From positions 19,780,001 to 19,844,000 of the forward strand of contig OU612072.1 of the NCBI GenBank assembly GCA_914767715.1: DNA of 64,000 nucleotides, in the 5' to 3' direction. Below, one piece after another: positions 4,797 to 63,383 of the stretch. The notes under the pieces were generated by a model. It saw only the letters and a program-made list of their open reading frames with translations, made no database searches and was not told the DNA's origin. The number at the start of each line of letters is the position of its first letter. The stretch's first letter is position 1. Source of the stretch: Membranipora membranacea. Taxonomy: Eukaryota; Bryozoa; Gymnolaemata; Cheilostomatida; Membraniporidae. The position numbers and the translations under genes are program-made.

Positions 4797-6190
4797 CTAT
4801 GCTGGTACATTATGATTATGATCATCATGGAATGTGTCCACGCCCAAATCAGTGCTTGTCTCATCTTGGCTATTCTCCTGGCCAGATTGATTCTCCCTGT
4901 TGCGTCTTTTGCCCTCGGCAACATTCATCCGGATGCAGCTGAACTGTAATCAGTACAAATCAATTTTAGTCAAGAAACCCGCATTAATTACAGTACACTT
5001 GTGATATCAAACCGTATACACACCAACATCAGTATACAAATCTGATATCACTGTTGAATGAAATCCAAACCAGAAGTCCTGTGAACTGAAACAATGTCTC
5101 AAGTCTGTTTTCAAAAGTTTGGTCTTGCTGAAGATTCTATGGCTCAATATTAACACACAAACACGCCTTTCAAAGGAAGTCAGTAAATATACTTACCTTT
5201 CATTCCTTTTGTTGGTGATGGTCCTCAGTCTGACGACATAAGCGGCAAATACTAGAGCAGAAATCACCACTATAATCCCAACAACTAAAGATATAAATGC
5301 AACATTTAGATTCGATATGCCAGGTTGTTCTGCTGACTTTCCGGCTGTGTTTGCGAAGTTTCCCTCTGAAAATAAACAAGGAAAATATTTATTGAGTGGG
5401 TTTGCTATTTTGCATTTTACTTCACTGATGAAATCATAATTCAGCAAGATTTGTGCATTCAGGGAGAAAAATATTTGTTATGCATTGATAATATGTCATT
5501 TCTGATTTCGTTTATTTCATTGAAAGGAGAGTGAAAATGACTCATAGGCCAAAAATAAAAGGTTTCTACCAGTTTGCCTACAGTTGGGTAACAATGATTG
5601 TAGAGAGGGTGTCCGGAGAATCTTGAGCCAGAAATAGTAAATATGAATAATAACCTTCTGTAGATTGTGGTTCCGGTGTAACATATGATGTACTTATAGC
5701 TGTTGCTCTCCTCGGCATCCTCCCTGGCAAAGTTACAAAAGTCATTGTCGTGTCAACGTAGTAGCTGTTGGTAAAACATCAAAAAATTGTTATAACTTTT
5801 ATTGATAAAATAATTTAAAACACATAAATAATAATAAAAATAACATAAATTGCATGGCGACAACAAAGAAGTAATTCCTTCAGTCACAGCAGACAGCGTT
5901 CTTGTCTACCGACCAGGCTATTGATTACAATATCAATACATTCTTTTATGGATGCTTAAAATTGGTAATAAACCACTTATGTTGTTGCTTACAATTATGA
6001 ATGACTGTAATATTAATAGTACAGTTGCCTCTATGAATCACATGACTACCGACAGCAAATCCAATCTGTTGATCGGGACCTGCATCCACTAACGCTTTCT
6101 CCTCATCAGATGTCACATAGAATGTCATGTCACTGTCAGGACAAGGTGCTCTGGAGGTAGTTTGCAGAGCAGTAGTTGATGTTTCCCAAT
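4797..6190 (-). pseudogene. receptor copy 0: HYR-stalk-TM-tail remnant without tail tyrosines
   Basis: 3' half of the NHL/HYR receptor family. In transcript order: HYR-like exon (about 6190-6003; APCPDSDMTFYVTSDEE, then AVGSHVIH and GNCTINITV), stalk exon (about 5767-5655), transmembrane exon (5365-5197, 169 bp, same length as in the other copies) and tail exon (4943 or 4938 to 4797). Lesions: the HYR exon lost its upstream part and acceptor; the stalk acceptor TTTTAG of copy B reads TTTTAC here after a small deletion; the tail exon has a 1-bp deletion giving an early TGA from the ancestral acceptor. An acceptor 5 nt further in (TTCAG) would restore frame. The three tail tyrosines of copies B and C are Ser, Phe and His. 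No NHL exon or signal peptide was found upstream. Probably a decaying duplicate, though a tail-dead decoy form cannot be excluded. Introns resemble those of copy B. Confidence 0.85.
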
Positions 6191-8605
6191 TAAAAGGTTA
6201 TGAACAGTTTTTGTTTTTAGGTTTTTTTTACGTTAGGTTTCTGCAATAACTAAGTGAGAACAAGATCAGATTCTAACAGTGAGTGGTCGGTAATGGAATG
6301 CCGCTCCCAGCCCCCCTGGCTCACAAATATTGTTGTGCTTGTTGATGGGTTGTTTTATTAATAAATTATGTTTGACATCATATTGAAAAATTATAGACAT
6401 GGATAATTTAATAATCGTTGTGTAACATTGAAAATTTAAATATGATTTATATAAACAGTTCCCATTTGTATATATCAACATTTGAATACATTTTAACCAA
6501 GAATCGGCAAAGGGCCGTTTGGACGGTAACGCAGCATGGGTGAATCACGGTGCAAAAAACTTGAAAAATTATTTTGCGAAAAATAAAGTTATAAAAATAT
6601 ATCATAGCAATGAAATGAACAAAAGACAATCATTGTTTCGAGGGACGGTGACGTTACAGACTCAGATAGGATATACAGGGACGGATAAGTACCTGGACTA
6701 GCAGTAATATGAGCAGCAGAAAGAAAAATAATGGAGATTGTTGCAATTAACCTTAAGACAGAATTTCTAGGAAAGCAGGCATTCAAAAAAATTTAACCAA
6801 AGCATACAAAATCCAAAAATTTGTTATTCAATTGTATTGCCTACTTACAGAAAAACTCTATTGGTGATGTTTTGTACCTGCAACATTAATTTGGGGCCAC
6901 AGTCCTAAATCTACTTTGAAACCCTTATTAATTCATCTAGGAGAAGGAATATGAAGGAAAAAGGTGCAAAATCTTACTATAAGAAATACAACATGTAAAA
7001 CATGAGCAAAAAAAACTTATAAGCGAACAGTCACCTAAGCTGCCTTAAGGTAGGAAAGTTGGAACTTATTGTAGGGTCTTGATGACAGTTGCAGTACCGG
7101 CATACTAAAGTGCCTGATCAAAGTTTCCCAACTCACACTGCAACATTGCCATGTGTGAGAAAAAAATTACAAAACACTAAAGTAATGTCGGGTAAGACAA
7201 TACAGCGATTGGTAAAATACTGTTTTCAGTACAGAAATAAGAAAAAGCCAATAAAAATAAACAAATCTCGGAGACTTATCATCCCAGGAGTGCCGACCAA
7301 GTGTGAGGGGGGACAATCACCAGTACAATAAGAATCAAAGAAAACACAGCTTTGTTTGGATTGTCAACTGAATCGTTTTTTTGTCCTAAATTTACAACAT
7401 GTTCACATAGGGAGTTGCCCTCTCACAAACGAGATTGGATTGTAAGACATTGAGTTATGCTGTCACTTGACCCTGTAAGATATATATGATTGGAACGAAG
7501 ATGATTATTCCTTTTATATCCGGTCATCAGTAGTCTTGACTTTCTACTCATATATCAGGTAGATGCGTCGTCCCAGCTCCCTACAAACAGAATTAAAGGC
7601 ATATCAATAAATAAAACGTTACGCCTTCTTAGTGACAAACGAAAAGTTAGCTCCACACTACAAGTCTGGTGTACTTAGCCTCAGGGTGACAATCACATGT
7701 TCGCTGGTGCGAACTACCCCCCGCCCCCATAAGACAAGCCTATATGTGACACATAGCTTCCAATATGTCTACACAAACTAAGCACAGCTGGAATTGTCCT
7801 GGCTGAATTGGGTGAAAGCTCATTTCTCCGAGTGGTTAATAGCTAGCATTGTCATGTGTTATGCATGGGTTTTGTTTTGTTGACCAAAAAAACAGACTTG
7901 TGTCAAGGCTGGGGAATAACAGGCATACAAAATAGTGCCTACTTAAGTCCATGATTTGTACTGTCAGGAGGTTGGCGCTTCAATAGGAAATGTTGGTTCG
8001 GGACCAATCGGGGAAGTTGTTTGTAAACATGAGTACTGCTCTTCTGACCCATGGGAAGAGGGGTGACTACTTTGTAAGAGCCTGCTAAACACTCCATAAG
8101 TCCAGAACACACATAGGTAGGCTACAATGTTTAACTATTACACAACATATGGTGTGCTTTAATTGAGAAGCATGCTTGATTTATGCTTCCAGCCTCAGGC
8201 CATCCCTAGACATATGTATTCCTCAATCAATCCACAAGAAACCCCTGATCATGTATGGGCCAAGAAGCCTGTACTTGGAGTTGCCCTCCACCCTACGCAG
8301 TAGAATGTAAAACAAACATGAATGTGGAGAAATCGGTTCAAACTTGACCAGACCCCACAATACTTTGTATGGAAACCCAAGGATTCATAAACCCGAACTT
8401 GGCAAAATTAAATTCCCATGCCATGCAAACATCATGTACCACATAATATTGACATGTCCCCCCTAAATGCTCTCTCAACTCAGAGATAAGTCAGTAAGAA
8501 TCTGATAAAAACTTTTGGTGAATGTCGGGAACGTCAGTGAACGTCAGTGAATGTTAGGGGATATCGGTGAATGTTGATGAATTCTAAAACCCCAACTAAA
8601 CGTAC
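6191..8605. other. intergenic sequence between receptor copy 0 and kinase remnant
   Basis: No gene I can support. A hydrophobic minus-strand stretch at 6690-6786 (core LIATISIIFLSAAHITA) looks signal-peptide-like and ends near a possible donor, but no acceptor downstream fits it in frame to receptor copy 0, so I leave it uncalled. Around 8530-8575 there is a short run of repeated GAACGTCAGT-like units. Confidence 0.4.
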
Positions 8606-10219
<1,614 letters not shown>

Positions 10220-12236
10220 ATATACTAATGAAATTCTTGCGTGTATCAATTTTAGCTAATTTATTATTAGCTATTTTTTATTTTGTCGGGTTGCAAGGAC
10301 GTCATTACCCCAAATTACTTCAACTTCTCATACTAGTGATATGATTTTGGCAGTATCTACCTATAATCAGTACACTGCAGTAAATATGTGATGCAATGAA
10401 CCTTTAGAAACCAGTAATGATCATATACCGAATCACAGTGACACAATGAAATCATGTGCAAGCCGGGAATATCGATTCCGTTGGTACAAGCTTACAAAAA
10501 TTGTAAAACGGTTAAACGGTATAGTTCTGACTGCAGAGTTATGTGGCTAGAACCAACTTTATATTACCTGGTATTTTTTATGCGCCATCCGATTGCATGA
10601 GAGATGTTATACAGAGAGCTTACCTGCCATGTAAAACGAGGGTAACAAATTGATACCCAGTTGTTTAGGAGATCAGTTTCACTTTACATTAATTTTGTAT
10701 GGCAAGTCTGTGACCTTCAAACATTTGACCAAGGTCAGCTTGTCTCAGCTATCGATATGCTATGCATACATCTTTAACAAGTGACATAATATTTGGAATA
10801 GCATCCTAGTTTTGTAGGACGGCTGGCTGCACCTTATTAGTGAGCATGATGTTTGATTTTTTTTTAAGTTCAGTGTCATTTATGGGTTGCTATAAGTCAA
10901 AATAGCTCAAGCACAAAAGAGAATTTCATGTTTCGTAACAAAGACGGTCATTATTTTAGCATCGCTTACAATCATACGTGATTATTTAGTGCATGATGGA
11001 TTGATAATTTTTGATATTTGTAACAGGCTTCATCGTTTGTTTACAAGGCACCTTGGATTTTTACACAGCTGCTCGATTGAAATTTGCCTAGCGGCTGCCT
11101 TCTGGCCTTCCAAAACAAGACACTGTCTACGCCAATAATTTGTTTAATAGCTTTATAACAAGTCATCGTTTGTACAACTTATCCCTGTGACAGCGGCTCT
11201 AACTCTGAATCTCTAAATGTGTGATATTGATATACGCTTCCCTCAATTTTGATCAACATGATGGCTAATGTCAGTTTGAAATTTATGACAGCATATGTTA
11301 ACCACAACACCAGTCACGTCCAAGTTTAATTTGATTTGTTTTAAAAAAAACGGCATTGGAATACAGATTGTTCTGAGGTCATAATAGCTTTGTCTTCACG
11401 TTATTCAATCCTATCTCAAACCATAGCACCATGAAGAGTATAGGAAACAAAGAATGTGTACATTGCATTGTGGGATACATAGCAACTTAGTTGTCACAAT
11501 TTAGTTATCACAGTTGTGACAGCCCAAAATCTACAGCGACAGAAGAAAGGATGATCAAAGATGTATATTCTCCCACAAGCACTGGTAAGCCTCATATCAT
11601 ACCTTACTCAAGGGCAGTGATTATTTGGGGACTTGAACGAACACAGACGCTGCTGGGAACTCAAAGACTAATACAGAAATGCTTCCCAATATTACTCATA
11701 CTATTCAAAAACTGATCGCATGTATCTGAAGCAGGAAACCCAACGATGCATTGCATAAAACAAAGGGTGGGTTTATTAAGCTAAATAGGCAGCCTAACAT
11801 ATGTTGATCTGTGCCTGCCATACCCTGTTTATGGCAAACAGAGGGTGGGTTGCCCCTAAAGACGGACGCAAGGTGCTCGAAGTCCTCGTACTGAGAGTGT
11901 GATACCTCCTAGAAAACTAGAACGCATCCTAGAGGTGACGCCAACGTGGACCTCATAATCGTGAGTGTGCAGCGAGCTGCCAGAAACTGAAGCAGGCACT
12001 AATCAGCCATTGGCAGTGACACTTTGATCTTAGCCAAAGCAATCTGTGCCTACCATACACCGCAAGTCATTTGATACAATGCGTAGTGATTGCCCACTGT
12101 CACAGAGCAGCCAAATCTAGCAGTGCCCTAAAACTAAAGTCAGGCCTGTCAAAGTTAGTATCTGTTATCAGATAAAATACTTGGAACTAAAATTGTACAG
12201 AGTCATTTTCCTTGCTGCTAACTATATACTATATAT
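10220..12236 (+). repeat. long direct repeat, copy 1
   Basis: Roughly 2-kb unit repeated in tandem at 12236-14208 and, more diverged and longer, at 25380-28475. Shared landmarks include CTGGTATTTTTTATRCGCC, GACGGCTGGCTGCACCTTATTA, the GCATTGTGGGATA motif, and GACAGCCCAAAATCTACAGC. Open frames inside (for example 11491-11715) are conserved only as a by-product of the DNA identity, and I see no domain in them. Confidence 0.85.
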
Positions 12237-14208
12237 AAGTAGCCATGTGACAAAGCTATGGCTTCAGAGCTATGCCCCTTCCCCTCTTCAAATAACTCCA
12301 CCTCAACCCTTATATATTATGAAGTTTTGTCTCAATGAAAATAAAATACCAAGATATACGGTTTTCTTTCGGCTCTTTGTTCAGAAATCCAATCCTGTCA
12401 TCAAAACATATATCCATAGCATGCATCTATGGGAATGGCAGGATTAGGATAATCAACTGACAAGTGCTGCACCCGATGGACATAAGCCATTTCAACTTTT
12501 ATACACATAACTCGCACGAATCTAGCGGTATAGTTCCGACTGCAGAGTCATGTGGCTAGTACCAACTTTATATAACCTGGTATTTTTTATACGCCATCCG
12601 ATTACATGAGAGATGTTATATATATAGCATACCTGCCATGTAAAACGATGGTAACAAATTGATACACAGTTGTTCAGGATATCAGTTTCACTTTACATTA
12701 ATTTTGTAAAGCAAGTCTGTGATCTTCAAACATTTAACAAAGGTCAGCTTGTCTCCGCTATCAATATGCTATGCGTACATATTTAATGAGTGACATAATA
12801 TAAGGAAAAGCATCCAAGTTTTGTAGGACGGCTGGCTGCACCTTATTAGGGAGCATGATGTTTGATTTTTTCAAAAAGTCAGTGGCACTTATGGGTTGCA
12901 ATAAGACAAAATGGCTCGACTAGAAAAAAGAATTTTATGTTTCGTAAAAACGACGGTCATTTTAGCATCGCTCACAATCATAAGTGATTATTTAGTGCAT
13001 GATGGATTGATAATTCTTGATATTTGTAACAGGATTATTTATTTGTTTACAAGGCACCTCGGGTTATTACACAGCTGCTCGATGGAAATTTGCCTAGCGG
13101 CTGCCGTTTGGCCTCCATAATCAAGACATTGTCTACGGCAATGATAGGTTTAATAGTTTGTAAGGTAACAAGTCATTGGTTGTATAACTTATCCCTGTGA
13201 CAGCGGCTCTAACTCTGAATCTCTAAATTTGTGATATTGATACATGCCTCAATTTTGATCAACATGATCGCTAATGTCAGTTTGAAATTTGTGACAGCAT
13301 ATGTTTACCACAACACCAGTCACATAAAAGTTTGATTTGATTTGTCTAAAAAAAAACGGCATTGATGCAGAATGTTCTGAGGTCATAATAGCTTTGTCTT
13401 CACGTTATTCAATCCTATCTCAAACCACAGCACCATGAAGAGTATAGGAAACAAAGAATGTGTACATTGCATTGTGGGATACATAGCAACTTAGTTGTCA
13501 CAATTTAGTTATCACAGTTGTGACAGCCCAAAATCTACAGCGACAGAAGAAAGGATGATCAAAGATGTATATTCTCCCACAAGCACTGGTAAGCCTCATA
13601 TCATACCTTACTCAAGGGCAGTGATTATTTGGGGACTTGAACGAACACAGACGCTGCTTGGAACTCAAAGACTAATACAGAAATGCTTCCCAATATTACT
13701 CATACTATTCCAAACTGATCGCATGTATCTGAAGCAGGAAACCCAACGATACATTGCATAAAACAAAGGGTGGGTTTATTAAGCTAAACATATGTTGATC
13801 TGTGCCTGCCATACCCTGTTTATGACAAGCAGAGGGTGGGCCGCCCCTAAAGACGGACGCAAGGTGCTCAAATTCCTCGTACTGAGAGTGTGATACATCC
13901 CAGAAAACTAGAATGCATCCTAGAGGAGACGCCATGGTGTACCTCCTAATCGTGAGTGTGCAGCAAGCCATTGGCAGTGACACTTTGATCGTAGCCAATA
14001 GGCCGAGAAGCGATCTGTTCCTACCATACACCGCAAGTTGTTTGATACAATGCTTAGTGATTGCTCACTGTCACAGAGCAGCCAAATCTAGCAGTGCTAT
14101 GAAACTAAGGTCAGGCCTGTCAGAGTTAGCTGCTCTTACCAGATAAAATACTTGGAACTAAAATTGTACAGAGTCATGTTCCTTGCTGCTAACTATACAC
14201 TATATATA
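12237..14208 (+). repeat. long direct repeat, copy 2
   Basis: Tandem neighbour of 10220-12236 with small indels and scattered substitutions. A 69-codon hydrophobic frame at 12911-13120 has a diverged counterpart in copy 3 (26453-26686), but in copy 1 the frame is broken, which argues against a real gene. Confidence 0.85.
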
Positions 14209-19300: not shown

Positions 19301-20239
19301 CTACTTTAAAATTTGCATTGTATCATAGGCATAAAGAAATACTTGCTAAAATTTGAAGATGTAGCTTCCATTGACTAATCAAAAACTGAAATCCTGAATC
19401 ATCAAATTTTCCGAGCAAACACATATCTCAGGATTAAATCTGATTCCATATGTATATTGAACCTGGCCATGGAGATCACAAGTCCTAAGAGCTAAGAGGG
19501 CTTTTGATCGACCTGATTCTCCGGGTACAAAGGAAAAGCTGAGAATTTGTAATTTTCGTTGGTTGTGTTCTAACCAAGTTTTGTATTTAGATTGATCATA
19601 AGGTAAAATATGAGAGAGTAAATCTTTTTCTACAACTCTAAGTTAACTACCAGTGTTGCTGAAAAGTTGTTTTTGCATTTGATTAGGGAACAATATCGTA
19701 CGTTATATTATGAAAAGTAAAGAAGTAGGGGTTCTAAGAAGAAAGTAGGATAGCACAGCAACCTGACTAACCTCTGACACTATCCCCAATGATCTTAATT
19801 TTAATCAAGCATCACACAATGAATCAATAGAATCGCGAGGTAAATTAACTATTTAAGTAGCTTCTGTCCTTGTAATCACTACTAAAGGCCCATACTGTAA
19901 AGTGGTTCAACCTGGTTTAACTCGTTACTTTGTTAGACACAAGAATCTGTTCTCTTGTCATACTTCTTATTATGAAGACATGAAGAAGTCAGCACCAGCT
20001 CAGCGTACGCTCCTGTATTTGTCTTAGTTGGATAAACCACCCTGCATGAATCATAGAAAGAGAGAAAAGTTTGGATACTGCTCAGTTTGTCTCTATATTA
20101 CTTACTCCCTTCACTTAGGTACAAAAAATCTGAGACTTGCCACAGAGAGTAATCTTAGCATAGAATTCCATAAGGATCCAACATCATTTCACAATTAAAA
20201 CAATTGAAATCAAAATACCACGCTTCTAAATAAAATCGC
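19301..20239. other. intergenic sequence downstream of gene A
   Basis: No gene recognised. The part next to 20239 is the presumed 3' untranslated region of gene A; I saw no clean AATAAA close to the stop. Confidence 0.4.
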
Positions 20240-23200
20240 TCACGGTGGTATCCTAGAGATGACCAGCATGCTCAGAGTAGGATATCTGCTCCGTTCAATG
20301 AGTCTGTCTGTCAGTCTCTGTTTCAGTGCGTTCGGTATTTTGGTTACTGAACCATCGAATGTGACATCAGTAGACCACGTTACTGTCAGAGTATCATTCT
20401 CACAAGTCAGCATAGCCTGAGAACCTGCCTGTGGCCTGCAGTCTGCAAAACAGAATTTGATATAACAGTAGTTGCAGAAGAAGATATTCAACATGTCCAG
20501 ACAGAGACAGAGTGACATGATGGGCATAATGAAAACTTTGACCTCTTGATCTTTCGAGCTAATAATTCTCATCATTATGCGGTGATCTTTCTAAAGACCT
20601 ACGCAGGTAGCATCATGCATTTGTATTTCGTCAATGATGAGCAAAAGTAGCGCAGCGAATTCAAAACTAACATCGCCTAAATTTTCAGTTTTCATTTGAC
20701 AAAGTAGCTGCCACAGTTTTTATCCCCATGGTTAAACAAGGAGGAGTTTATGATGGGATTTTTAATTGGCCTGTCCCTCATTATGTTTGGTCATTATCAA
20801 CATTACAGTTACAATATTAAGCCCCATATTTATCTTGATAATAAATTAACTTACTGTGTTGACATATATCCTTTATCTGGTTGACATTACTATTGGCGAC
20901 GCTTGTAAGAGTAGATAGAGCAACCTTCTCAGTCAGCACTGTACACTTTATATCATATCTAGCAACCAGTTCTATTTGTCTCAGCAACAGGTAGTCTGAA
21001 ATTTCAAAGGTTGAATATCATAGCGGGTAGAGGCCTACTGCAGACATGAACTTGCAGAAAAACATTTTGACTGACTGATAACCGTGGTAACAAAATTCCA
21101 TTCTAGTGTGTTTAACACACCAATAAAGACAACTATAGCCTATGAAGCAAATTGGCAATAATCAGCAATAACAATTCTGAATGATGATGGTCATATCAAA
21201 TTGACTCAAGCATATTTTGTGTGCAGTCAATCAAATGTGATTTTTTCATATATGCTTTTTTTATTTTGAAGGTTTCGAAGTTTAAATTTGAGGTTGATCC
21301 TGACATCATCAATGTTTTGAGCATCGAGCCTCAAGATTGCACTTTCAACCTCAATCTATCAACATACCTTTAATTTCTACAGTGACATTACAGGGATTAT
21401 TTCCACCGACTATCTCATACTCATAACTACCGACTGGTAACTTCATTCTGTGGGTGATACCTTCTATAGACAGATCTACGTCAGCTAATCCAGTAGCAGG
21501 AGAGACAACTTCCCGTATCGTATCCGGGCAGGTCATGTCTAGTTTTGAGGTGCCTGTGAAGTGTTACACAATACCTTCTGATCACAAAGATTTTTGTGGT
21601 ACTAATTGACTAGGTATTTAAAACTTCAATTTTGAGATTTGAAATTGAGACGCAAATGTAGGATACAAAACTACCTAACATAAATATAACACACAGAATG
21701 CAGGTATATTGAAATATTCAAATTCTTGAATGCCTCTTCATACAAATATCTTCGTTGAAATTCCAAATTTATATTATGTTATCAAGAGAACATATACAAA
21801 TGAGCAGCAACCAGACACAAGAAGCTCAAGGTTAAGTAACCGGTCAGCAATCCAGAGCAGCAGTGATCACAGGAAGGGATGAAATATACAGATCACATTT
21901 TGTACTTACTATTATTTATGACTGTAATTTGTATGGTACAGTTGTCTCTGTAGATGACATGACTACCTACAGCAAATCCAGTGTGCTGGTCAGGAGCTGT
22001 ACCCACAAAGGCTTTCTCATCATCAGACGTCACATACAGTGTCATGTTGATGTCCTGACAAGGTGGTCTGGTGGTTGTCTCTACAGGTAAAAATAGATAT
22101 TCATTTTGATGTGACAATATATTTTAATTGATGAAGTTTAAAATGTGACAGCTGTAAATCCATTTAGACAAGTACAAGTACAGCAAGGTATGATGAAAGG
22201 TTGCTTAAGTTGGCAATATTTACGGCGTATATTCATACTCACCGTTTTTTATAACTTCGATGTTCAATGCGCAGTTGTCTTTATAAATCACATGACTACC
22301 CACAGCGAGTCTAGTCTGTATGTCAGGAGTTATGTCCACTTGTGCTTGCTCCTCATCGGATGTCACATAGACTGTCATGTTTTCGTCCTGACAAGGGGCT
22401 TTGGAGGTGGTCGTCTGTGTAGTTGTTGATGGTGTGGTAGTTGTAGGTATTGGCGTAGTTGTCAGTCTTGGATCTAGAATATTAGAATATTTAGTATCGT
22501 GGAGTCATTTATTAAAACACCTTTCAAACAAAATCAAAAGAATTTTAAAAATTGTGGTTTCAACAGGAATATAAACAGAATTTCCAAGGCTGCTTCTCTA
22601 CTTTATAATTTAATTAATTCATATCTCATTTATTGGAGTAATCTTTTTATGTGAGGCAAAAGTGGTAAATTTGATCATTGATATTATATTTAGTAAAATC
22701 AGCTACTATGTTGTCTCACAAGATTATCAGGCGGGAATGGCTAAAGTGGTAAAATGGACCAGCAAATATCACCTATAAATTCAACTTGAGATAACAGAGA
22801 TAGCATTAACCTATAAATATATATACAGAGTACTCACACACAAACTGCTGGATCCTCGGCCATTGTCCGACGTACAGAGAAGTATTAGTGATAAGCAGAG
22901 AGGTTGGGCGATACAAACATCCTGAGCAGAGATCCAGGGTGGTCACTCTGTCTGAGTTCATGTCTACGAGTCGGATCTTGTTATTGTCTCTGTCAGCCAC
23001 AAGCAGTGTCTGATTACCTATGAATACGAGGTCATATGGGTTGGAGAATAACGAGTATAGTAGAGAGCTGTCTCTGTATCCTCTGTTCCCTGGTGACCCG
23101 GAGATAAGTGTTATTTTCTTCTCTCTGTATGTGATACGGTAGAGAGCGCTTTTTGCTGCTAAGACATACAGATCCCCTTTGTCATCTTGTGTCAGCTGTC

Positions 23201-24723
23201 TGATATACTGGAGGCGGTCGGACTTAACGAAATTACCGACCGAGGCGGAGCTTACATCGACTGTCCTCACAGCCTTGTTAAGCCGGTCAGTGACGAGAAG
23301 CTGATCGACACTTTTATTGTCTCTTATTACAGAGAAGGGATAGTAGAACTGACCGGGGCGACCGTCTGTGTATCCTGCTGACTTACACTGTCCAGAGAAG
23401 ACGGAGGTGATCCTTGTGACACGGTTAATCTCTCTCAGACAGTGATTACCAATGTCAGTTACAATTACACGCCTATCTGTGACTTGTGTGAATCCATAGA
23501 TAGAATCAAACCAAGCCTCAGTTCCTTTCCCCTCTCTGTATCCTCTCTCAGCAGTGTTCCCGGCTATGGTCGTAGATGTCGTACCATCGCTGGTCTTCAG
23601 TGAGTGCATGTCAGTGTACAGTATGTGACCGGGTTGGAACAGATCTTCTTCCATGTGATAAACATAGTAAGTGGTGGTGGTGGTGAAGTGTGTAGCAGTA
23701 GATCTCTCTAATCTGTAAGATTAATATTATTATGTAAATGGACGATGTTTGTTAATTTGATTGTATTAACGCAGTAATTATTGAACAAAAAAAACACAGA
23801 TATTGCAAATGCAAATGCAATATTTTAAATTCATAATTTAAATGAAGTGTATTTTTCGCATTCTAAGTATTTATGTGCTGGTGGGTGAATCAAATATATC
23901 AGAATTATTAATTTTTCCCAAAATTGATTCAAATTGATTCAAAAGGCTAATCGTGTTTTCTATCTACCAATTAAATTTAAATGCAGGTTATGCACCAGAC
24001 ACCAAATTATATAATATTTTACACGCGGCTTTCGTTCACAGTAAGTTTTGGTTATTTGGAGTTGTCACATGTTATACACCATGAGGAGGCAATACACAAA
24101 ATTTCAATTAAGCGACCTAAATTCAAAATCTTGAGTAAAACAGATATTGCTTCAATTAATCAACAAAAATGTTTGCAATGTATAAATTACAAAAAAGTAA
24201 CAGCTTGTACCAAAATTAATGTGTAATATCACAAATCACAAGAAGGAATGAAACGATCAAATGATTAGTTCACTGTACATTGCCTACCCTGAATCTGATA
24301 TTTTTACTAAAGTATATTCTAGCATAGAACTCAGAAGGCTTTCAAACCCCTATTTATCACATCAATGGAAAGTGACTCACCGATCAACTAGAGACTGCGT
24401 ATCCTGATCCAGACACCACCCAGTATTTAGTGTCACACAACATAACACCTGTCAAAACAATGATGGTAATAATTAAGTTTGTTACAAACGAAACAAGTAA
24501 TGTACTGTAGGTTAGGGGGGAGACACCTCCCATATAACGAGAATACTGATTCCCCATTGAGACCCTCTGCACACTCATCATATAAGTGTTATGTCAGGGT
24601 TGAAGCATGTCATGCTTGTAATCTTCTGTACTGCAGGATTATTACAAAATATCAATTTTAAGGTTATAATTGAATTGCAATTCACATTGTACTTACAAGG
24701 AAAAGTGCCAGTCTCAGCTCCAT
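20240..24723 (-). CDS. gene A: secreted NHL-propeller/HYR-like protein (8 exons, 633 aa)
   Basis: Coding exons in transcript order: 24723-24697, 24448-24381, 23712-22838, 22473-22243, 22080-21910, 21553-21368, 20995-20855, 20442-20240. They join in frame to 634 codons including TGA. Residues 1-21 (MELRLALFLVLCC...) form a signal peptide split by intron 1. Exon 3 (residues 32-323) is a six-bladed-type NHL beta-propeller with blade signatures such as NHCLREI, NKAVRTV, ALYRITY and NKIRLVDM. Exon 4 opens with a Thr/Pro linker and, like exon 5, encodes a short HYR-like beta domain (CQD..MTxYVTSD, AVGSHVIY, DNC). Exon 6 is another (MTCPDTI, LPVGSYEYEI, CNVTVEI). Exons 7-8 add Cys-containing segments of unknown fold. 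There is no transmembrane helix or GPI-like tail, so it is probably secreted. From exon 3's end through exon 8's start all boundaries are phase 1, typical of shuffled extracellular modules. NHL propellers bind proteins or nucleic acids; being extracellular points to protein or glycan ligands. Paralogue of gene B. Confidence 0.9.
24381..24723 (-). other. signal-peptide exons 1-2 of gene A
   Basis: Exon 1 (27 bp) starts at the ATG at 24723 and ends before GTAAGT. Exon 2 (68 bp) follows a TTTTGACAG acceptor and ends before GTGAGT in phase 2, which the first base of exon 3 completes. Together they give a hydrophobic core ending in Cys, then LDQDTQSLVD. The start is chosen because it is the only upstream ATG that makes a signal peptide in frame with the propeller. 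Confidence 0.85.
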
Positions 24724-29910: not shown

Positions 29911-29921
29911 TAAAGGTCCGT

Positions 29922-30144
29922 ACATACATACATACATACATACATACATACATACATACAAACGTACATACATACGTACGTACGTACATACATACATACA
30001 TACATACAAACATACATACATACATACATACATACATACATACATACATACATACATACATACATACATACATACATACATACATACATACATACATACA
30101 TACATACATACATACATACATACATACATACATACATACATACA

Positions 30145-30178
<34 letters not shown>

Positions 30179-40636: not shown

Positions 40637-41042
40637 TGTCGTGTATTCAACTTACATGTATAGTTGTATGGGTCCTCCTAGCTCCCTAGTTCTTTATGTA
40701 ACTCAGTATGTCTCTCCTTAGTACTTCTTCTCTCTCAGTCCACATTTATTGTAAAACCCTCTCTTTGCGCATCCGGATATAGTCCGAGTCTGCCTCCTTT
40801 GCTAATCTCTTTCACCTGCTGTCTAGATCCCTTATGCTAATATCCGGTTCCACCACATCTCCCTTCCTTTCCTCAAATCTATTGTCTTGATTCCTTATGC
40901 TAATATTTGGTTCCACCATATCTCCCTTCCTTTCCTTATTTCTTCGTTATCTTATTATTTTTTTTTTCTAATCCTGATTGTACGTCTACTGGGGACGTTC
41001 TCTCTTATGTCCCGATTTCTGAATCTGGGCTCTTCTCTCTCC
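40637..41042 (-). repeat. 3' LTR of the Gypsy element
   Basis: 406 bp, starting TGTCGTGTATTC on the plus strand. It holds an internal duplication: two copies of CTTATGCTAATAT, each followed by GGTTCCACCA and ATCTCCCTTCCTTTCCT. The purine-rich string GGAGAGAGAAGAG at its minus-strand start could be the polypurine tract, though it is present in both LTRs. Confidence 0.95.
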
Positions 41043-41919: not shown

Positions 41920-41939
41920 TCTCAGGGAGGTCCAGGTAT

Positions 41940-42995: not shown

Positions 42996-44159
42996 TGGTT
43001 TATTTCCGTTTCTATCTCGAACCGCCTTCCCACTAAATAGAAATCAAACTTCCCACATGCCCATGTGATTGCTAATGCCTCTTTCTCAATTTGTCCGTAT
43101 CTCCTGTCTGCATCTGTCAGTTTTCGTGACGCATATGCCACTGGTCTCCATTCTCTATTACCTTGGTTTTGTAGTAATGCTGCACCTAGTGTATGGCAGC
43201 TAGCGTCCGCTGTCACCCTATGCTCCTTATTATAGTCGAACAGGGCCAATAGCGGAGAAGACGTTATCAAGTCCTTAACTAATTCAAAACTTCTCTGATG
43301 AGTTTCCAGCCAAATCCATTCATTTTTCTGCCTATCCAGCTCTCTGAGGGCCACTTCTGCTTCAGACAACTTGGGGCTGTACCTACTCAAATAATTGACC
43401 ATTGCCAAAAATCTTTGACGACTTTCTCTGTCTGTCGGGGGTGGCATCTCCCTAATTGCTCTCTCTTTCTCGGGGTCCACACTTATCCCCTTCGTGCTGA
43501 GTATGTGCCCCAAGAACTTCACTTCCTTAACGCCAAATTCACACTTGGACTTATTTAAGGTCATACCTGCCTTTTCTATCTTTAAAAATACCTCCCAAAG
43601 CCTTTTATCGTGCTCTTCTCTGTTCTTCCCTACTACTAATATATCGTCCATCATGCAAACTACTCCTTCCATCCCTCCCAGAATCTTATTCATCTGTCGC
43701 TGAAAGAATTCTGGGGCTGCTGATATACCAAAAGGCATTATTTTTCCTATATTGGTATCTGCCAAAAGGGGTGATAAAGGTTGTGTATTCCCTTGATTCC
43801 TCCTCTAATCTAACCTGCCAAAACCCTGAGTTGGCGTCCATCTTGCTAAAGTACTGGCTCCCTGCCAACGACGATAAAGTGTCTTCTATATGGGGCAAAG
43901 GAAAAGTCTCCCGCTTGACACTCTTATTGAGTTCTGAGAGATCTACGCAGATCCTAACTTTCCCGCTCGACTTCGGTGCTACCACCATCCCTGAACACCA
44001 AGTAGTTGGTTTCTCTACTTTTTCAATTACTCCCAAGCTTTCCATCCTCTCTAATTCATCTTGTGTAGCCTGCCTAGAGCCAATCGGTAGTCTCCTTGGG
44101 ACATTAAGACATAACGGCTTCGCTCCGTCTTTCACGTTGATTTTGAAAACATCCAGCAA
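42992..44159 (-). CDS. Gypsy reverse transcriptase and RNase H (one frame break)
   Basis: Reverse-transcriptase blocks GVIEKVEKPTTWCSGMVV, KVRICVDLSELNK, FSKMDANSGFWQ, and, after a frame break near 43690-43765, PFGISAAPEFFQR and the catalytic CMMDDILV. The usual first residue Tyr or Phe of the xxDD box is Cys-Met-Met here. RNase H follows with HRVTADASCHTLGAAL and RYGQIEKEALAI. The order and residues fit Ty3/Gypsy rather than retroviral or Copia enzymes. Confidence 0.93.
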
Positions 44160-44234
44160 AACACCAAGTTTACCGAAGAGTTTCGGATGTCTTGTTTGAA
44201 TTTCCCAGCCGCTAATGCTCCGTACTGTCTTTAC

Positions 44235-44507
44235 TTACTCTAATTTGCTTATTTCTGGTTTGCCTAAAAGGTTGTTTTGGGCTCCCTCCAATATGTAAGC
44301 TCTCCCTCTAACTGCTTGTCCCCATTCTGACAACAGGGGAATGTGTGTCCTGAATTTTATATCGGGCCTATTACCGTCGGCTCCTCTGAACTCTCTCTTC
44401 GTTGATTTCCTCTCTAAACCCAGCCTATCTGCTGTCTCTGGTGTAATCACTGTGACGTCAGCTCCTGTGTCGACTATAAACTTAACCATTTTCTTGTCGA
44501 CTTTCAA
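44235..44507 (-). CDS. Gypsy aspartic protease
   Basis: Retropepsin-type active site FIVDTGADVTVI, with a flap-like segment and the C-terminal ILEGAQNNLLGKPEI. A stop (44235) separates it from the reverse-transcriptase frame, so pol is not a single frame in this copy. It would process the gag-pol polyprotein. Confidence 0.9.
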   Translation of the reverse strand: MKVDKKMVKFIVDTGADVTVITPETADRLGLERKSTKREFRGADGNRPDIKFRTHIPLLSEWGQAVRGRAYILEGAQNNLLGKPEISKLE

Positions 44508-44546
44508 TCTTATCTTGAAATCCTCGCTCTTTTTTCTCCCTTGTAG

Positions 44547-45564
44547 TCAAAATGATTCCTCTGATTCGCTCGAATACCCTGCCATTGCATGAACTTTGCT
44601 TTTGCTTGTGTCTTTTTGTCCGAACCGGCTCGGGCAGAATATCGCTAGATGGCTGGTGTCTCCACAAACGAAGCACTTAAAGTTTGTGTTTCTACTTCTC
44701 GCTCCCATTTCTCTCTCTTTCTTATCTCGACATTCCTTATAGTCATGTGCAAATCCTCTACATGTGTAGCAGCCTCTTCCTCTTCCTCTGCCTCGCCCTC
44801 TCCCATATCCTCGACCTCTAAATCCCGAGTTGAAACTACTGCCATAATTGCTTGCTCCAACTCTATCTATGTTTTCCTGTTCTCCCTCCTGACTATAGTC
44901 GCCTAAATGTTTCTCCGTTACTTCGTCCACTTCTGATATGGGTTTTGGCTCGGTTCTTTGTAGGATCTTAGAAGCTGCCCTTGCTGACTCGTACCTGTTG
45001 CAAGTCTCCTTTACTTTTTGTAATGTCAGGTCTTTCTTCAATAGCAACTCATTTCTTATCTTATCCACATTCATGCCTTTTATCACTACCTGAACGTTCA
45101 TCTCCTCTTCTAATCCTCCCCATTGACACGTACTTCCTCTCCTTTCTACTCTCTCGATAAATTTATCTAACCTCTCCTCGCTATTTTGCTCCATTCCTAA
45201 GAACCTGTGTCGCGTTGCCACTATATTCTCTCTGCTTGCAAAATGCTCATCGAACGCGGTTTTCAGCCTTTCACATTGCATGGTTTCCACTTCTATGCGC
45301 CATGTCTCAAAAATGTTCATGCCGTATTCCCCCATGCTATCTACTAGTATAGCCGCTTATCTCTGCTCAATATAAAAAAATTAGCTGACGTTCGGTGATG
45401 GCGGATCTCTTTGTTTTGACTCCATCACACTCTTTGTACCTGATTCCCGCTCCAATTACTGCCATCTCAAACCTCTTTATAAACTTTCTCCAGCACTCCA
45501 ACTCCGCTCCTTGCTCAATGTGAAACATTGGTGTCTTCACACCCTTTCCAAATTTTTTTTCCAT
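44547..45564 (-). CDS. Gypsy gag with two zinc knuckles (frame break)
   Basis: N-terminal piece 45564-45367 and main piece 45335-44547 lie in different frames. The capsid-like region has LGMEQNSEERLDKFIERV and RNELLLKKDLTLQKVKETC, as in retrotransposon gag. A GRGRGRGRG basic stretch is followed by two CCHC knuckles, CYTCRGFAHDYKEC and CFVCGDTSHLAIFC. The protein would package the RNA genome. Confidence 0.9.
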
Positions 45565-45703
45565 TGCTTTAATACTAAGGAGTTACCGGGAACCTTGCCT
45601 AATTTTATCGATGACGTCACACTCCGCCTAATTCAAATTCTTTCAACTCTCTATTCCTTCACTAATTTCAACCCTCATGCCAATCCTCTCTAATTCTAGT
45701 TTA

Positions 45704-45715
45704 CATCTGACACCA
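45704..45715 (-). promoter_or_regulatory. primer-binding site candidate of the Gypsy element
   Basis: TGGTGTCAGATG directly abuts the 5' LTR end (ACGACA). TGG at this position is expected from complementarity to a tRNA CCA end. The tRNA species is not determined. Confidence 0.65.
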
Positions 45716-46122
45716 TGTCGTGTATTCAACTTACATGTATAGTTGTATGGGTCCTCCTAGCTCCCTAGTTCTTTATGTAACTCAGTATGTCTCTCCTTAG
45801 TACTTCTTCTCTCTCAGTCCACGTTTATTGTAATACCGTCTCTTTGCGCATCCGGATATAGTCCGAGTCTGCCTCCTTTGCTTATCTCTTTCACCTGCTG
45901 TCTAGATCCCTTATGCTAATATCCGGTTCCACCACATCTCCCTTCCTTTCCTCAAATCTATTGTCTTGATTCCTTATGCTAATATTTGGTTCCACCACAT
46001 CTCCCTTCCTTTCCTTATTTCTTCGTTATCATATTATTTTTTTTTTCTAATCCTGATTGTACCGTCTACTGGGGACGTTCTCTCTTATGTCCCGATTTCT
46101 GAATCTGGGCTCTTCTCTCTCC
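45716..46122 (-). repeat. 5' LTR of the Gypsy element
   Basis: 407 bp, differing from the 3' LTR at fewer than ten positions by eye (for example CACGTTTATTG against CACATTTATTG). Its outer end abuts LINE sequence. Confidence 0.95.
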
Positions 46123-46430
46123 GGTTCCATCACAGTGCCGTTGCTCAATTCAGATGTAATCCAGTCCGTATATATGGAAAACAAAATAGGACTTAAAACG
46201 GAGCCTTGAGGTGTACCAGTGTTTGTCTTGGTGGGTCAAGATAGATTGCCGTCTACCAAAGTTTCTTTGTACTTTGTCACTGAGAAAGCTAGCTATCCAC
46301 TCATTAATACTGCAGAGTCGAGGTGCTGGAGTTGTGATATGAGACTGGAGACATTGATTGTATTGAAGGCTGCGAAAAGTCTAGAAATACACATCTTGCA
46401 TAATTGGTGGCTAGTTTGTCTATGAAAGTG
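46123..46430 (-). mobile_element. LINE fragment, reverse-transcriptase palm before YADD
   Basis: Minus strand carries AAFNTINVSSLISQLQHL, ASFLSDKVQR and, in another frame, GTPQGSVLSPILFSIYTDW, the classic non-LTR reverse-transcriptase blocks. Frameshifts and a TAG make it dead. It ends at NGTVME, next to the Gypsy 5' LTR; the YADD part resumes at 40636. Confidence 0.88.
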
Positions 46431-49209: not shown

Positions 49210-50283
49210 TATTGTTACAGTTACAGTTATTGTAAATCACCATGAGGTCCAGTTTTTCATGTATATATAACCGGGGAGCAGACTTTTCAAAGCTTTTTCT
49301 GAAGACCGTAAACTTTTTATGAATTATTTTTGATAGAGGGACGCATACTGTGTTAATAAATATGTGTACCAAGTTTCAGACCTGTAGCTATAGTCCTGTT
49401 TTTCCAAAGTTTACCCAAAGAATTGAGGTTATCAGAGCTAATTGTGAAAATTTTAGCTTTCTGGCTGATTTATTTTACTATATCAACTTATACCATGCAA
49501 TTGGCTATGTGTGGTAAGTTACAGACTTCTAGCTTCAATACATCACCATGTTGTCCTGTTGTGGTCCAGTTTTTTTTTCCATGTTCACCCAAAAAATATG
49601 GGGTTAGCAGAGCTATTCATCAAAAATAAAGCTTTTTTTACAGATGGTTTATGCTTTTTCAACTATTACGATGCCATCGACCATGCAGTTTTCAGAGCTA
49701 TTATTGAAACAAAAAAGCTTTTTTCTAATTTTTTCTTGCTTCATCAACCGATACTATGCCATTGTCTATGTGTGATAAGTTAAAGACCTCTAGCTATAGT
49801 AAATCACCATGAGGTCCAGCGTGGTCCAGTTTTTTTCCCATCTTTACCCCGAAAAATGAGGTTTTCAGGGCAATTATCGTAAAATTAAAGCTTTTTTTTT
49901 TCGAACTCTTTTTTGCTATAACAACTGATAATATGACATTGTATGTGTGTGTTAAGTTACAGTCCTCTAGCTATAGTAAATCACCATTAGGTCCAGTGTG
50001 GTCCATTTTTTTTCCAATTTCTACCCCGAAAAATGAGGTTTTCAGAGCTATTATCGTAAAATAAAACCTTTTATTGAATTTTTGTTGCTTTGTCAACTGA
50101 TACTATGCCATAGACTATATGTGCCGAATAATAGACCTTTAGCTATAGTACATCACCATGAGGTCCAGTTGTGGTCCATTTGTCTCATGGTCCATTTGTC
50201 TTGTGATCCATTTTGCATGTGGTCCATTTGTCTTGCGGTCCAATTGTCTTGTGGTCCATTTGTCTTGCGGTCCATCTGTCATA
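49210..50283 (+). repeat. tandem repeat array (about 170-bp units) ending in a 16-bp minisatellite
   Basis: Units share CCTCTAGCTATAGTAAATCA, CACCATGAGGTCCAG, GTGGTCCATTTTT, CCCGAAAAATGAGGTT and TCAGAGCTATTATCGTAAA. At 50161-50283 only the GGTCCATTTGTCTTGT word is repeated, about eight times. The array ends right at the 5' edge of the receptor fragment C and replaces the sequence expected upstream of it. Confidence 0.85.
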
Positions 50284-50299: not shown

Positions 50300-51213
50300 A
50301 CCAACAACTTAAACGATGGACATGATAAGGACTATGGTAACATCAACTGCCCTAAATACATCATTTGTTACAACGGAGCCACAATCTGCAGAAGGTTATT
50401 ATTTGTATTTACTATTTTTGGCTTAAGATTCTCTCCCCCTATACAATTATTGTTACCCGAAAAATGGTAGGAGAGTTTCATTTATGGGCAGATGAGTTGT
50501 TTTTATTCTCCTTCCGATATAAAACTAAATCACTAATGACAGATCATCAATGAAAATTAAATATGTATTAGCATGAAAACTAGTGAACCTACTCAATATA
50601 TAATTTTTCTGTTTATTTCCAGATGGAATTCCCAAAATCTCAACCGTGAACCCAACAGAACCTCCAAGCATATCAAGTCTACATATCGCATTAATATAAT
50701 CAGCTGTGGTGATTAAACTTATAATTATTGTGTTGTTATTTGCTGCTTATATCATCAGACTGAGGACCAAAACAAAGAACAGGAATAATAGGTAAGTTTT
50801 GTTACCGATCTTTCTTAGAAAGGATACAGGTGTATTGCTTCATTAATAGAATTATTAACAAGTCCAATGTTCTGAATACAAACTTTATTCAATGTTGCAG
50901 TTCACAATACATCTAGTGTTGGAGGTTTTTATGAATTTAATGATATCAATTTGATATAGGTCTTTATAGTAATTCAACAATGATATCAGTGTTGTGGAAA
51001 TTCAAAATAATTAAAGCAGGTTTCTTGCCTTACATTGAGCTGTACATACCTAATCACACTGCTTACAGCTCAGCTGGTATTGGGATGAATGTTGTCGGGA
51101 GCAAACAAAGTAACATAGTAAATCAAGCTGGTCAGGAGAAAAGCCCAGATGAGACATACGCTGAGTTAGACATGGACACATACCATGATGATCATACTTA
51201 TAATATACCATAA
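50300..51213 (+). pseudogene. receptor copy C: stalk-TM-tail fragment with nonsense codon
   Basis: Only 3' exons remain, on the opposite strand to the other copies. The stalk part ends VTTEPQSAE at 50394, before a GTTATT donor shared with copies 0 and B, and its upstream half is replaced by the tandem array. The transmembrane exon (50623-50791, 169 bp) has good splice sites but TAA at 50697-50699 within the helix, and a Lys in the helix. The tail exon (51069-51213) is intact: SSAGIGMNVVGS, then TYAEL, DTYH and TYNIP. AATAAA follows at 51219. No NHL or HYR exon upstream. A dead 3' duplicate, but its tail has kept all three tyrosines. Confidence 0.85.
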
Positions 51214-51224
51214 AAAACAATAAA

Positions 51225-60164: not shown

Positions 60165-63100
60165 TTATGCCGGTACGTTATAAATATGATCATCATGGTA
60201 TGTGTCCATGTCTAACTCAGCGTATGTCTCATCTGGGCTTTCCTCCTGACCAGCTTGATTCTCTCTGTTGCTTTGTTTGCTCCCGACAACATTCATCCCA
60301 ATACCAGCTGAGCTGTAAGTAGTACAAGTAGGCGTGTACAGATCAATACTAAATCAAGAAAGCCTTTATTGCTTTGAGTAAACTTGTGATATCAAACCGT
60401 ATATACACCAACATCAGTATACAAATCTGATATCAATGTTGAATGGAGGTCAACTCCAGACCAGAAGTACTGTAAGCTGAAACTGAAAAAGAATAAAATC
60501 TGTATTTAACAGTTTAATCTTGCAGAAGATTCTATGGAGCAAAACTTCATCCTTGCCTTTCAAAGGAAGTCAGTAACAATTCATACCTTTCAGATCTTCT
60601 GTTGGTGATGGTCCTCAGTCTAACGATATAAGCGACAAATACTAGAAGAGAAATCACCACTATAATAACAACAGCTGAAGATATTATTGCGACATTTAGA
60701 TTTGATATGCCAGGATGTTCTGTGGTGTTTCCGGTTGTGATTGCAGAGTTTCCCTCTGAAAATAAATGAGGAAATTAAATATTGAGTGGGTTTGTTAATT
60801 TTCATCTTACTTCACAGATGGGATCATAATTTTGCAAGATTTGTGCATTCAGGAGATTAATATTTGTTACTCAAATTCACAATGCCATTTTTGATTTAGT
60901 TTCCATTGAAAGGAGTGCAAGAAATGACTCAAAAGCCCCAAAATAAAAGGTGTCTACCATTTTGCAAACATTTGGGTAACAATGATTGTAGAGAGGGGCT
61001 GAGGAGAATCTTAAGCCATAAATAGTAAATACAAATAATAACCTTGTGTAGATTGTGGCTCCGGTGTAACATGTGATGTACTTATAGGTGTTGATCTCAT
61101 CGGCAGCCTCTCTGTGAAAGTTACCATTGTCATTATTGGGTCTATTGTAGAAGTTGTTTGTGGTCCAGCTGTTAGTTTAGGATCTAAAACATCAACGTTT
61201 TTATATTGTTAAAATTGTTTTAAACAGCAGACGAGAATGAAAAATAAGGTTAGTGAGGTGGCAATATAGAACTTAACTAACAGCCCATATCGATGCATAT
61301 TTTTGAAATAAATAACATAAAACTTCATCATTACCCTGGCGATAATATTTATAGGACTACAAAAACTGTCCGGTGAAAAGAATTTCAGAGAGCTTTGGGA
61401 TTGGGGCTTAGGTACTTGTGTACCAAGTAGGGTTATGATTGCCATTTAAATGTGAGTCTTCCTTACGTTAAATGAAAAACGAGGTATTAAATTGACACGC
61501 TCAAATTAGCAATGAATTATTTATAATTATCCTCACCATTATTTGTGACTAAAACATTTATAGTACAGTTGTCTTCATAAATCACATGAGTTCCGACAGC
61601 TAAACTTGTATTTACACTTGGAGTCACCTCCATAAATGCTCTGTCCTCATCAGATGTCACATACAGTGTCATGTTTCTGTCGTGACAAGGCACTCTAGTG
61701 GTAGTTCCTAAAGATTAAAATAAAAATGCATCATTTCCATGAGGATTCTATTCAATATAGGAGAACAAATACTGTATGGTACAATTACATTTAGTTTTGG
61801 ATACAAGTTTAGGTGCTTGTGTGCCGAGTATTAGAGGTGGTATCCTTCATTTAACGGACAGCAAGTTATTTTTAATGGTTAGCTCAAATTGGCTATCAAC
61901 TATATTTATTTATACCCACCGTTATTTATGACTATAATGTTTATAGTACAGTTGTCCCTATAGATGACATGACTACCCACTGCAAATGCAGTCTGCTGGC
62001 CAGGAGCTGTATCAACCAGTGCTCTCCCCCCATCAGATGTCACATAGAGTGTCTTGTTACTGTCCTGACAAGAGGCTCTGGTGGTCGTCATCTGTGTAGT
62101 AGTTGATGGTGTGGTAGTTGTAGGTATTGGCGTAGTTGTAAGTTTTGGATCTAGAAAATTTGAATATTCAATATCATGGAGTCAATTTTTAAACACCTTT
62201 CAAACAAAATCAAAAGAATATTAAAAAAAATTGGTTCAACATATATATATATAAACAGAATTTCTAAGGCTGCTACTCTACTTTATAATTTAATTATTTC
62301 ATATCTCATTTATTGGAGTAATCTTTTTATATGAGGCAAAAGTGGTAAATTTGATCATTGATATTTAGTAAAATCAGCTATATGTTGTCTCACAAGATTA
62401 TCAGGCGGGAATAGCTACAGTGATAAAATGGACCAGCAAATATCACCTATAAATTCAACTTGAGATAACAGAGATAGCATTAAACTATCAATATATATAC
62501 AGCGTACTCACACACAAACTGCTGGATCCTTCTGTTTTGTCCGACGTACATAGAAGTGTTAGTGATGAATAGAGAGCTGGGATAGCTCAGACATCCTGAG
62601 CAGAGATCCAGTGTGGATACTCTGTCTGTGTTCATGTCTACGAGTCGGATCTTGTGATTGTCCCAGTCAGCCACGAGTAGTATCTGATTACCTATGAATA
62701 CGAGGTCATGTGGGTAGTTGAATAACGAGTTTAGTAGAGAGCTGTCTCTGTATCCTGAGGTCCCTGGTGACCCGGAGATCAGTGTTATTATCTTCTCTCT
62801 GTATGTGATACGGTAGAGAGCGCGGTTCGCTACTGTGACATACAGATCCCCGTTGTCATCCTGTGTCAGGTGTGTGATATGCTGGAGTCGGTCGGACTTA
62901 ACGAAAGTACCGACAGAGGCTGAGCTTACATCGACTGTCCTCACAGCCTTGTTATAGTAAGCAGTGACGAGAAGCTGATCGACATCTTTCTTGTCTTTTA
63001 TTACAGACCAGGGAAAGTTGAACTGACTGGGGAGACCGTTTGTGTATCCTGATGACTGACACTGTCCAGAGAAGACGAAGGTGAGGCCTGTGTGACGGTT

Positions 63101-63383
63101 AATCTCTCTCAGACAGTGATTACTATAGTCAGCTACCATTATACGCCTATCTGTGACTTGTGTGAATCCTGTGATAGTGGAGAATCGAGCCTCAGTTCCT
63201 CTCCCCTCTCTGTATCCTCTCTCAGCAGTGTTCCCGGCTATTGTCATAGATGTTTTACCATCGCTGGTCTTCAGTGAGTAGCGGTCTGTGTACAGGATGT
63301 TACCAGGCTTGAAGATATCTTCTGACAAGTGGAAAACATAGTTAGTGGTGGTGGTGAAGTTTGTAGCTGTAGATCTCTCTAAT
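60165..63383 (-). CDS. gene B: transmembrane NHL-propeller/HYR receptor with tyrosine tail (5' end off window)
   Basis: Exons in transcript order: 63383-62512 (NHL), 62150-61920 and 61707-61537 (HYR-like), 61183-61043 (stalk), 60755-60587 (TM), 60312-60165 (tail, stop TAA). Frames join without error. Exon sizes match gene A for the two HYR-like exons (231 and 171 bp), and the NHL exon is one codon shorter. The propeller has NHCLREI, NKAVRTV, ALYRITY and HKIRLVDM blades. The stalk is Thr/Ser/Pro-rich (probably O-glycosylated). The helix runs about VAIISSAVVIIVVISLLVFV, then RLRTITNRR as stop-transfer. The 50-residue tail carries TYAEL (a YxxL motif), DTYH and IYNVP (a YxxP motif), so SH2-domain partners are plausible. 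The two signal-peptide exons expected by analogy with gene A would lie beyond 64000; the last 600 bp match gene A's intron 2. A single-pass cell-surface receptor is the likely role. Confidence 0.9.

Follow-up and report, generated by a model that had tools for sequence, protein, structure and literature searches.

Paired secreted and membrane-bound NHL-propeller genes of Membranipora membranacea: differences focused on a ring of loop residues suggest a diversifying recognition-receptor family

The stretch of Membranipora membranacea DNA analysed here (contig OU612072.1, positions 19,780,001 to 19,844,000; 64,000 nucleotides, hereafter the window) contains two related genes, A and B, and two partial relatives, copy 0 and copy C. 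Genes A and B each encode a six-bladed NHL beta-propeller on a single exon; the two propellers are 76% identical in protein sequence and retrieve each other in tblastn searches with E values of 2.75e-145 and 4.2e-138. A previous reading, made from the sequence alone, had placed four copies of one receptor family in 60 kb. Two propeller genes and two partial copies are indeed found at the proposed places, but only two of the four carry a propeller.

Gene A lies on the minus strand and reads as nine exons separated by eight GT-AG introns, which together form a single open frame of 668 residues running from an ATG at 24723 to a stop codon ending at 19933. Here, as in gene B, the exon joins were assigned from splice sites and phase. 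Exon 1 (24697-24723) supplies the ATG and the start of the signal peptide (MELRLALFL), ending at a donor, GTAAGT, whose phase fits exon 2. The latter (24381-24448) has an AG acceptor, encodes the remainder of the signal peptide and the N-terminus and is joined in frame, through a phase 2 GTGAGT donor, to the propeller exon (exon 3, 22838-23712). Next come three exons in phase 1-1: exon 4 (22243-22473), for a Thr-rich linker and a first HYR-like module; exon 5 (21910-22080), for a second module; and exon 6 (21368-21553), for a third, more divergent one recognised by alignment. The C-terminal region is encoded by exons 7 (20855-20995) and 8 (20244-20442), both in frame with GT-AG borders, and by exon 9 (19933-20041), which carries the C-terminus and the stop and whose AG acceptor is in phase with the phase 2 GTGAGC donor of exon 8. 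No Pfam match was obtained for this region, and tblastn retrieved nothing similar to exon 7 from the rest of the window with an E value under 1. The product begins with a hydrophobic N-terminus, MELRLALFLVLCCVTLNTGWC, past which no 19-residue window exceeds a hydropathy of 1.6 and no later transmembrane segment is found. As had been proposed, A reads as a secreted form; the 3' end proposed for it, at 20240, had to be moved, since the GT at 20243 can be spliced in phase to an extra exon at 20041-19933.

Gene B, also on the minus strand, could be followed from exon 3 to exon 8 (63383 to 60165), a stretch of 576 residues with a frame open from exon 3 to the stop at 60165. It comprises the propeller (exon 3, 62512-63383), a Thr-rich linker with a first HYR-like module (exon 4, 61920-62150), a second module (exon 5, 61537-61707), a Ser/Thr/Pro-rich stalk (exon 6, 61043-61183), a transmembrane helix (exon 7, 60587-60755; hydropathy 3.1 over 19 residues) and a cytoplasmic tail with the stop (exon 8, 60165-60312). 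The tail contains three tyrosines, in ETYAELD, DTYHDDH and HIYNVPA; of these, YAEL and YNVP resemble SH2-type motifs. As had been proposed, then, gene B specifies a membrane-bound protein with a tyrosine tail, and it has the anatomy of a single-pass receptor (one transmembrane helix followed by cytoplasmic tyrosine motifs) whose N-terminus is outside the window. A signal peptide had been named as part of the architecture; it is seen in A, and in A only because the first two exons of B, including any signal peptide, would by comparison with A lie past the window edge at position 64000. The 3' end of B might also be spliced in another way, with an extra exon at 60482-60409 and a last exon starting from 60307. 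The direct, in-frame splice from the transmembrane exon to 60312 is the favoured model, given that copy C, too, keeps its frame across this junction.

Assignment of the propeller fold rests on several observations. The NHL profile (PF01436) matches gene B with an E value of 2.6e-9 (37.1 bits) and gene A with one of 3.9e-5 (23.9 bits; cut-off 20), NHL proteins are also retrieved by a sequence search of the PDB, and both structure prediction and fold matches give six blades. The same NHL sequence and six-bladed fold occur in TRIM2, TRIM3, TRIM71/LIN-41, Thin, NHLRC2 and SOQ1, none of which is known as a transmembrane receptor with a tyrosine tail. The label "HYR" given to the short modules in the sequence-only reading amounts to a resemblance. 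A scan of the assembled gene A, with HMMER filters that may drop weak matches, left the HYR profile unmatched and returned NHL as the sole Pfam family at E values up to 10. The module of exon 5 is predicted to form a five-stranded beta unit (predicted local distance difference test score, pLDDT, of 81), but the best PDB match of this model has an E value of 0.49, and none reaches 0.001. The modules look constrained, the ratio of non-synonymous to synonymous divergence (dN/dS) being 0.23-0.39 in all seven pairs compared (0.39 between the first modules of A and B).

The propeller exons of A and B differ from each other more than the DNA that surrounds them. Nucleotide differences amount to 122 of 872 positions in the propeller exon (14.0%), compared with 30 of 607 in the 5' flank (4.9%) and 26 of 357 in intron 3 (7.3%); the exon departs from the pooled flank and intron with a Fisher p of 3e-9. 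Hypermutation of CpG was considered as the cause of this divergence and rejected: with CpG sites left out, the exon still shows 101 differences in 796 positions (12.7%), the 5' flank 24 in 583 (4.1%) and intron 3 24 in 351 (6.8%). At the protein level, the amino acid is changed in 67 of 290 propeller codons, or in 68 of 289 with the other placing of a one-residue gap.

Blades 2-6 were brought into register by two conserved residues, used as anchors: the Pro or Ile that opens strand a (P) and the Val of strand b (V). The variable residues recur in the same columns of the blades, giving 42 column pairs compared with 19.5 +/- 3.6, and none of 20,000 circular shifts reaches 42. Five columns make up what is here called the ring: P-2, P-1 and P+1, in the d-a loop, and V+3 and V+4, in the b-c turn. 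When the columns were chosen with one blade left out at a time, all five rounds picked the same five, and an amino-acid change was present in 22 of the 25 held-out ring codons (5, 5, 3, 4 and 5 of five, blade by blade). In blade 1, which had no part in the choice of columns, both b-c turn residues differ. The proportion of changed non-synonymous sites (pN) is 0.555 in the ring, against a pN of 0.069 and a synonymous proportion (pS) of 0.148 in the remaining 136 aligned codons; likewise, 31 of 50 first and second codon positions differ in the ring as opposed to 48 of 530 in the remainder of the exon. Neutral simulations run at the synonymous distance of the rest of the exon (0.16) changed 7.7 ring codons on average and never more than 17 in 20,000 runs, and at a distance of 0.27 a single run in 20,000 reached 22. 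The ring is also rich in aromatic residues: Tyr and Trp account for 14 of its 50 residues, whereas the remainder of blades 2-6 has 14 among 398. Measured against both the synonymous rate of the exon and the non-coding DNA, the amino-acid excess is focused on the ring, which would represent a binding face.

In beta-propellers the d-a loops share a face with the b-c turns, and the innermost strand is strand a. For these reasons the ring is assigned to the top face, where, from the order of strands in the model, it would surround the mouth of the central channel. A control was provided by the NHL domains of TRIM2 and TRIM3 (one pair, partial coverage, 123 aligned residues), in which the ring, unlike that of A and B, is nearly constant in the part compared: 1 of 14 ring residues differs, and 21 of 109 elsewhere. 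The ring is therefore not simply where NHL paralogues drift.

A number of points weigh against reading the ring as the product of selection for binding. The comparison involves just two propellers, from two paralogues in one window. By the time the anchors were fixed in their final form and the turn of blade 1 was assigned, the variable residues had already been seen; a first alignment of the blades, one column out in two of them, gave a p of 0.0066, and a coarse test of faces based on strand halves and loops (39 of 140 changed on the top, 15 of 92 on the bottom) fell short of significance, with a p of 0.056. If the neutral distance is assumed to be 0.5, 211 of 20,000 simulations reach 22. Aromatic residues may be ordinary for NHL repeats at some ring positions. 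Synonymous sites in the ring have changed to the same degree as non-synonymous sites (7.8 of 13.3 and 34.2 of 61.7, respectively), so that the excess holds relative to the rest of the exon and to non-coding DNA, not relative to the ring's own synonymous sites. This last comparison is a weak one, with 13 sites and path averaging in multiply hit codons; a local hot spot of mutation or conversion at the ring is nonetheless compatible with it. Both facts could be explained if whole codons had been replaced through conversion that drew on a diverse pool, with selection acting afterwards. In the exon as a whole, four-fold degenerate sites differ at 16 of 117 positions, compared with 56 of 964 in non-coding DNA (flank plus intron), a synonymous excess that selection on the ring does not fully explain, and the overall dN/dS of the exon is below 1 (0.65-0.77; bootstrap range 0.52-1.12, with 7% above 1). 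Both recombination and selection must therefore be considered.

That recombination has acted here follows from the change in character of the A/B match between the propeller and HYR-like module 1, where the synonymous distance (dS) is 0.62. By their sequence, the 3' parts of A and B are older relatives, which differ in giving a secreted and a membrane form; the simplest history would be that a 5' half was recently copied and joined to a 3' half of another kind.

The divergence of the propeller exon beyond that of non-coding DNA, together with the concentration of changes on the ring, directly supports a role in recognition. The best reading, and one that we regard as probable, is that the locus belongs to a diversifying family of propeller-headed recognition receptors with membrane and soluble forms. 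The sequence-only reading had pointed, from the clustering of copies, to an immune or self-recognition locus. The excess change in the propeller exon and its return to the same blade positions agree with recognition; the class of "tail-dead" receptors that formed part of that proposal is not supported (see below). The anatomy of A and B, the class of their fold and the place and excess of the changes are as read from the DNA and the models built on it; from these we infer ligand binding by the propeller, signalling through the tail and a use in immunity or allorecognition.

In the scheme proposed, A and B would belong to a small family of recognition receptors that act outside the cell and multiply by duplication. 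Each would carry its six-bladed NHL head on a stalk built from short beta modules. Form B would be anchored by its single helix, and its tyrosine tail would probably recruit SH2 proteins once phosphorylated; form A, with its different C-terminal region, would be secreted. The ligand would most likely be bound on the top face of the propeller. Some five residues of each blade, grouped around the opening of the central channel, would take part: two before and one after the conserved residue at the junction of the d-a loop and strand a, plus another two from the b-c turn. Selection would have driven these residues apart between paralogues, with the frame kept, giving each receptor a specificity of its own, perhaps directed at non-self, at microbes or at other individuals.

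The alternative that survives best, although we think it unlikely, is that A and B arose by duplication as developmental or adhesion receptors and diverged a single time, the ring changing as each took on a ligand of its own, with no repertoire and no immune role. Just two propellers are seen, and with a secreted 3' half in one gene and a membrane 3' half in the other, their roles may simply differ. Teneurins, moreover, have extracellular NHL propellers with binding roles (PMC6422961). However, 22 of 25 ring residues have changed between genes whose flanks are about 5% diverged, which would call for very fast change, and the partial and broken copies suggest turnover. An origin as gamete or species recognition proteins, with selection imposed by reproductive conflict instead of immunity, is improbable: positive selection is typical of secreted and surface binding proteins, but the tyrosine-motif tail suggests a signalling receptor of the cell surface. 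Slightly less probable still is that no selection for binding took place, the exon of one copy, or pieces of it, having been replaced from a divergent donor by gene conversion or unequal crossing-over, or the flanks homogenised, and the ring being either a hot spot of mutation or conversion or simply the surface under least constraint; the exon's synonymous sites do exceed the flank divergence, those of the ring (7.8 of 13.3) keep pace with its non-synonymous sites and the A/B match shifts beyond the propeller (dS 0.62), but the rest-of-exon synonymous rate never yields 22 of 25 changes (maximum 17 in 20,000) and TRIM2 and TRIM3 spare the ring in the part compared.

The reading as diversifying recognition receptors has a parallel in the HET-D/HET-E (HNWD) NOD-like receptor (NLR) allorecognition proteins of Podospora anserina, in which the same two loops vary. 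In each WD40 repeat of HET-D/HET-E, codons 7 and 9, in the d-a loop on either side of a conserved codon 8, and codons 25 and 27, in the b-c turn flanking codon 26, are positively selected (PMC1805685). The selected codons map to the top of the propeller (PMC1805685 and PMC2873952). As in those proteins, a d-a pair brackets a conserved residue in A and B; unlike there, the b-c pair is adjacent and a third d-a position, P-2, varies. HET-D and HET-E are NACHT proteins with near-identical WD40 repeats that are exchanged between and within genes (PMC1805685), whereas A and B have an NHL propeller, with blades divergent within each gene, and are transmembrane or secreted. The combination of NACHT and concertedly evolving WD40 repeats is not seen, NHL being the only Pfam family reported for gene A. 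By analogy, A and B may work like the HET-D/HET-E system without being members of it. More tentatively, it is possible that an animal genome independently invented propeller-based recognition, with the NHL propeller as paratope, the same head both on a signalling membrane receptor and in soluble form and the loops used by HET-D/HET-E. In each blade, the paratope would then comprise some five residues next to the mouth of the channel, free to vary and rich in aromatics.

The animal recognition receptors known to have focused hypervariability are built mainly on immunoglobulin, leucine-rich repeat and lectin scaffolds. If the proposal is true, a secreted and transmembrane NHL propeller with a hypervariable ring would be a new recognition scaffold, and the d-a loop and b-c turn solution would be common to fungal allorecognition and an extracellular receptor. 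The ring defines exact positions at which polymorphism, the exchange of domains and binding could be studied, and A and B are candidate genes for self/non-self recognition in their host.

Other known systems share some of these traits. A teneurin-like structure occupies row 14 in the list of structure matches to the propeller; teneurins are type II proteins of very large size that contain other domains, and they are not known as clustered, diversifying copies. A further fold match, 1rwi, is the extracellular sensor of Mycobacterium tuberculosis PknD, which has in common with the receptor form proposed here an extracellular six-bladed propeller joined through a transmembrane helix to signalling. 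PknD differs in being bacterial and in having a Ser/Thr kinase inside the cell. Hydractinia Alr and other clustered allorecognition receptors are transmembrane proteins with tyrosine-motif tails and paralogous fragments; their ectodomains are immunoglobulin-like, not propellers. Among the titles and starts of abstracts covered, no title dealt with NHL-propeller surface or immune receptors apart from the teneurin paper (PMC6422961). The absence of such receptors from print is not thereby established, because a figure legend in PMC8242945 has an NHL repeat among the domains drawn for sponge immune receptors. Patterns derived from the gene B propeller, which reach close relatives only, gave 2 matches in a set of viral contigs and 21 in a set of genome contigs, none of them a relative by tblastn at E 1e-3.

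Copy 0 (minus strand, 6164 to 4797) retains a HYR-like module (5997-6164; 57.9% identity to the B module over 76 residues, with an in-frame stop upstream), a stalk, a transmembrane exon (5197-5365) and a tail exon without tyrosines (4797-4938; DETSTDLGVDTFHDDHNHNVPA). No first exon or propeller was found for it by tblastn, and inspection by eye revealed no in-phase acceptor for the HYR-like exon. That module has a dN/dS of 0.23-0.26 relative to those of A and B, a sign of constraint at least in the past. Compared with B, dN and dS are 0.208 and 0.18 in the stalk (ratio 1.16), 0.171 and 0.194 in the transmembrane exon (0.88) and 0.200 and 0.281 in the tail (0.71), and the introns adjoining the transmembrane exon are 0.17-0.21 divergent. 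Because the divergence of these three parts from B is close to that of the introns, copy 0 is probably a decaying 3' fragment and not a designed tail-dead form. The tail tyrosines are lost, yet constraint on the tail has gone too, which leaves "tail-dead" unsupported as a functional class. The idea of a functional decoy was set aside as the leading one on the same grounds, dN, dS and intron divergence being much alike.

Copy C is inverted relative to the others (plus strand, 50304 to 51213) and is, as had been proposed, a 3' fragment: no propeller was found, and stops interrupt both its stalk-like stretch (50304-50423; tblastn E 1.5e-5) and its transmembrane exon (50623-50791; in-frame TAA). 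Its tail exon (51069-51213; YAELDMDTYHDDHTYNIP) is open and conserved relative to B (dN 0.051, dS 0.158) by comparison with introns at 0.29-0.39, so the tail was either constrained until recently or converted. Directly upstream of copy C lies a 177-base tandem repeat of 2.8 copies (49688-50178), followed by a 16-base array extending to 50280.

Elsewhere in the window, fragments on the minus strand at 8600-9240 (among them GELLQRHMEVLSNNLFFKG), with a stop, resemble kinase exons, presumably of CDKL type; the longer piece has no Pfam match at E 0.01. The segments 10517-14208 and 26096-28508 form a tandem duplication of about 89% identity, related to a third, more diverged copy, and the one reading frame scanned gave no Pfam match. 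The window returned no Rfam match at gathering scores and no ARAGORN hit. A TACA tetranucleotide array of 85.5 copies (29921-30262) generates long spurious open reading frames in several frames. Finally, a Gypsy-type retroelement occupies 40637-46126 on the minus strand. Its matches to gag/PNMA-like, reverse transcriptase, RNase H and integrase sequences are spread over separate frames and lie between direct repeats of about 411 bases that are 98% identical.

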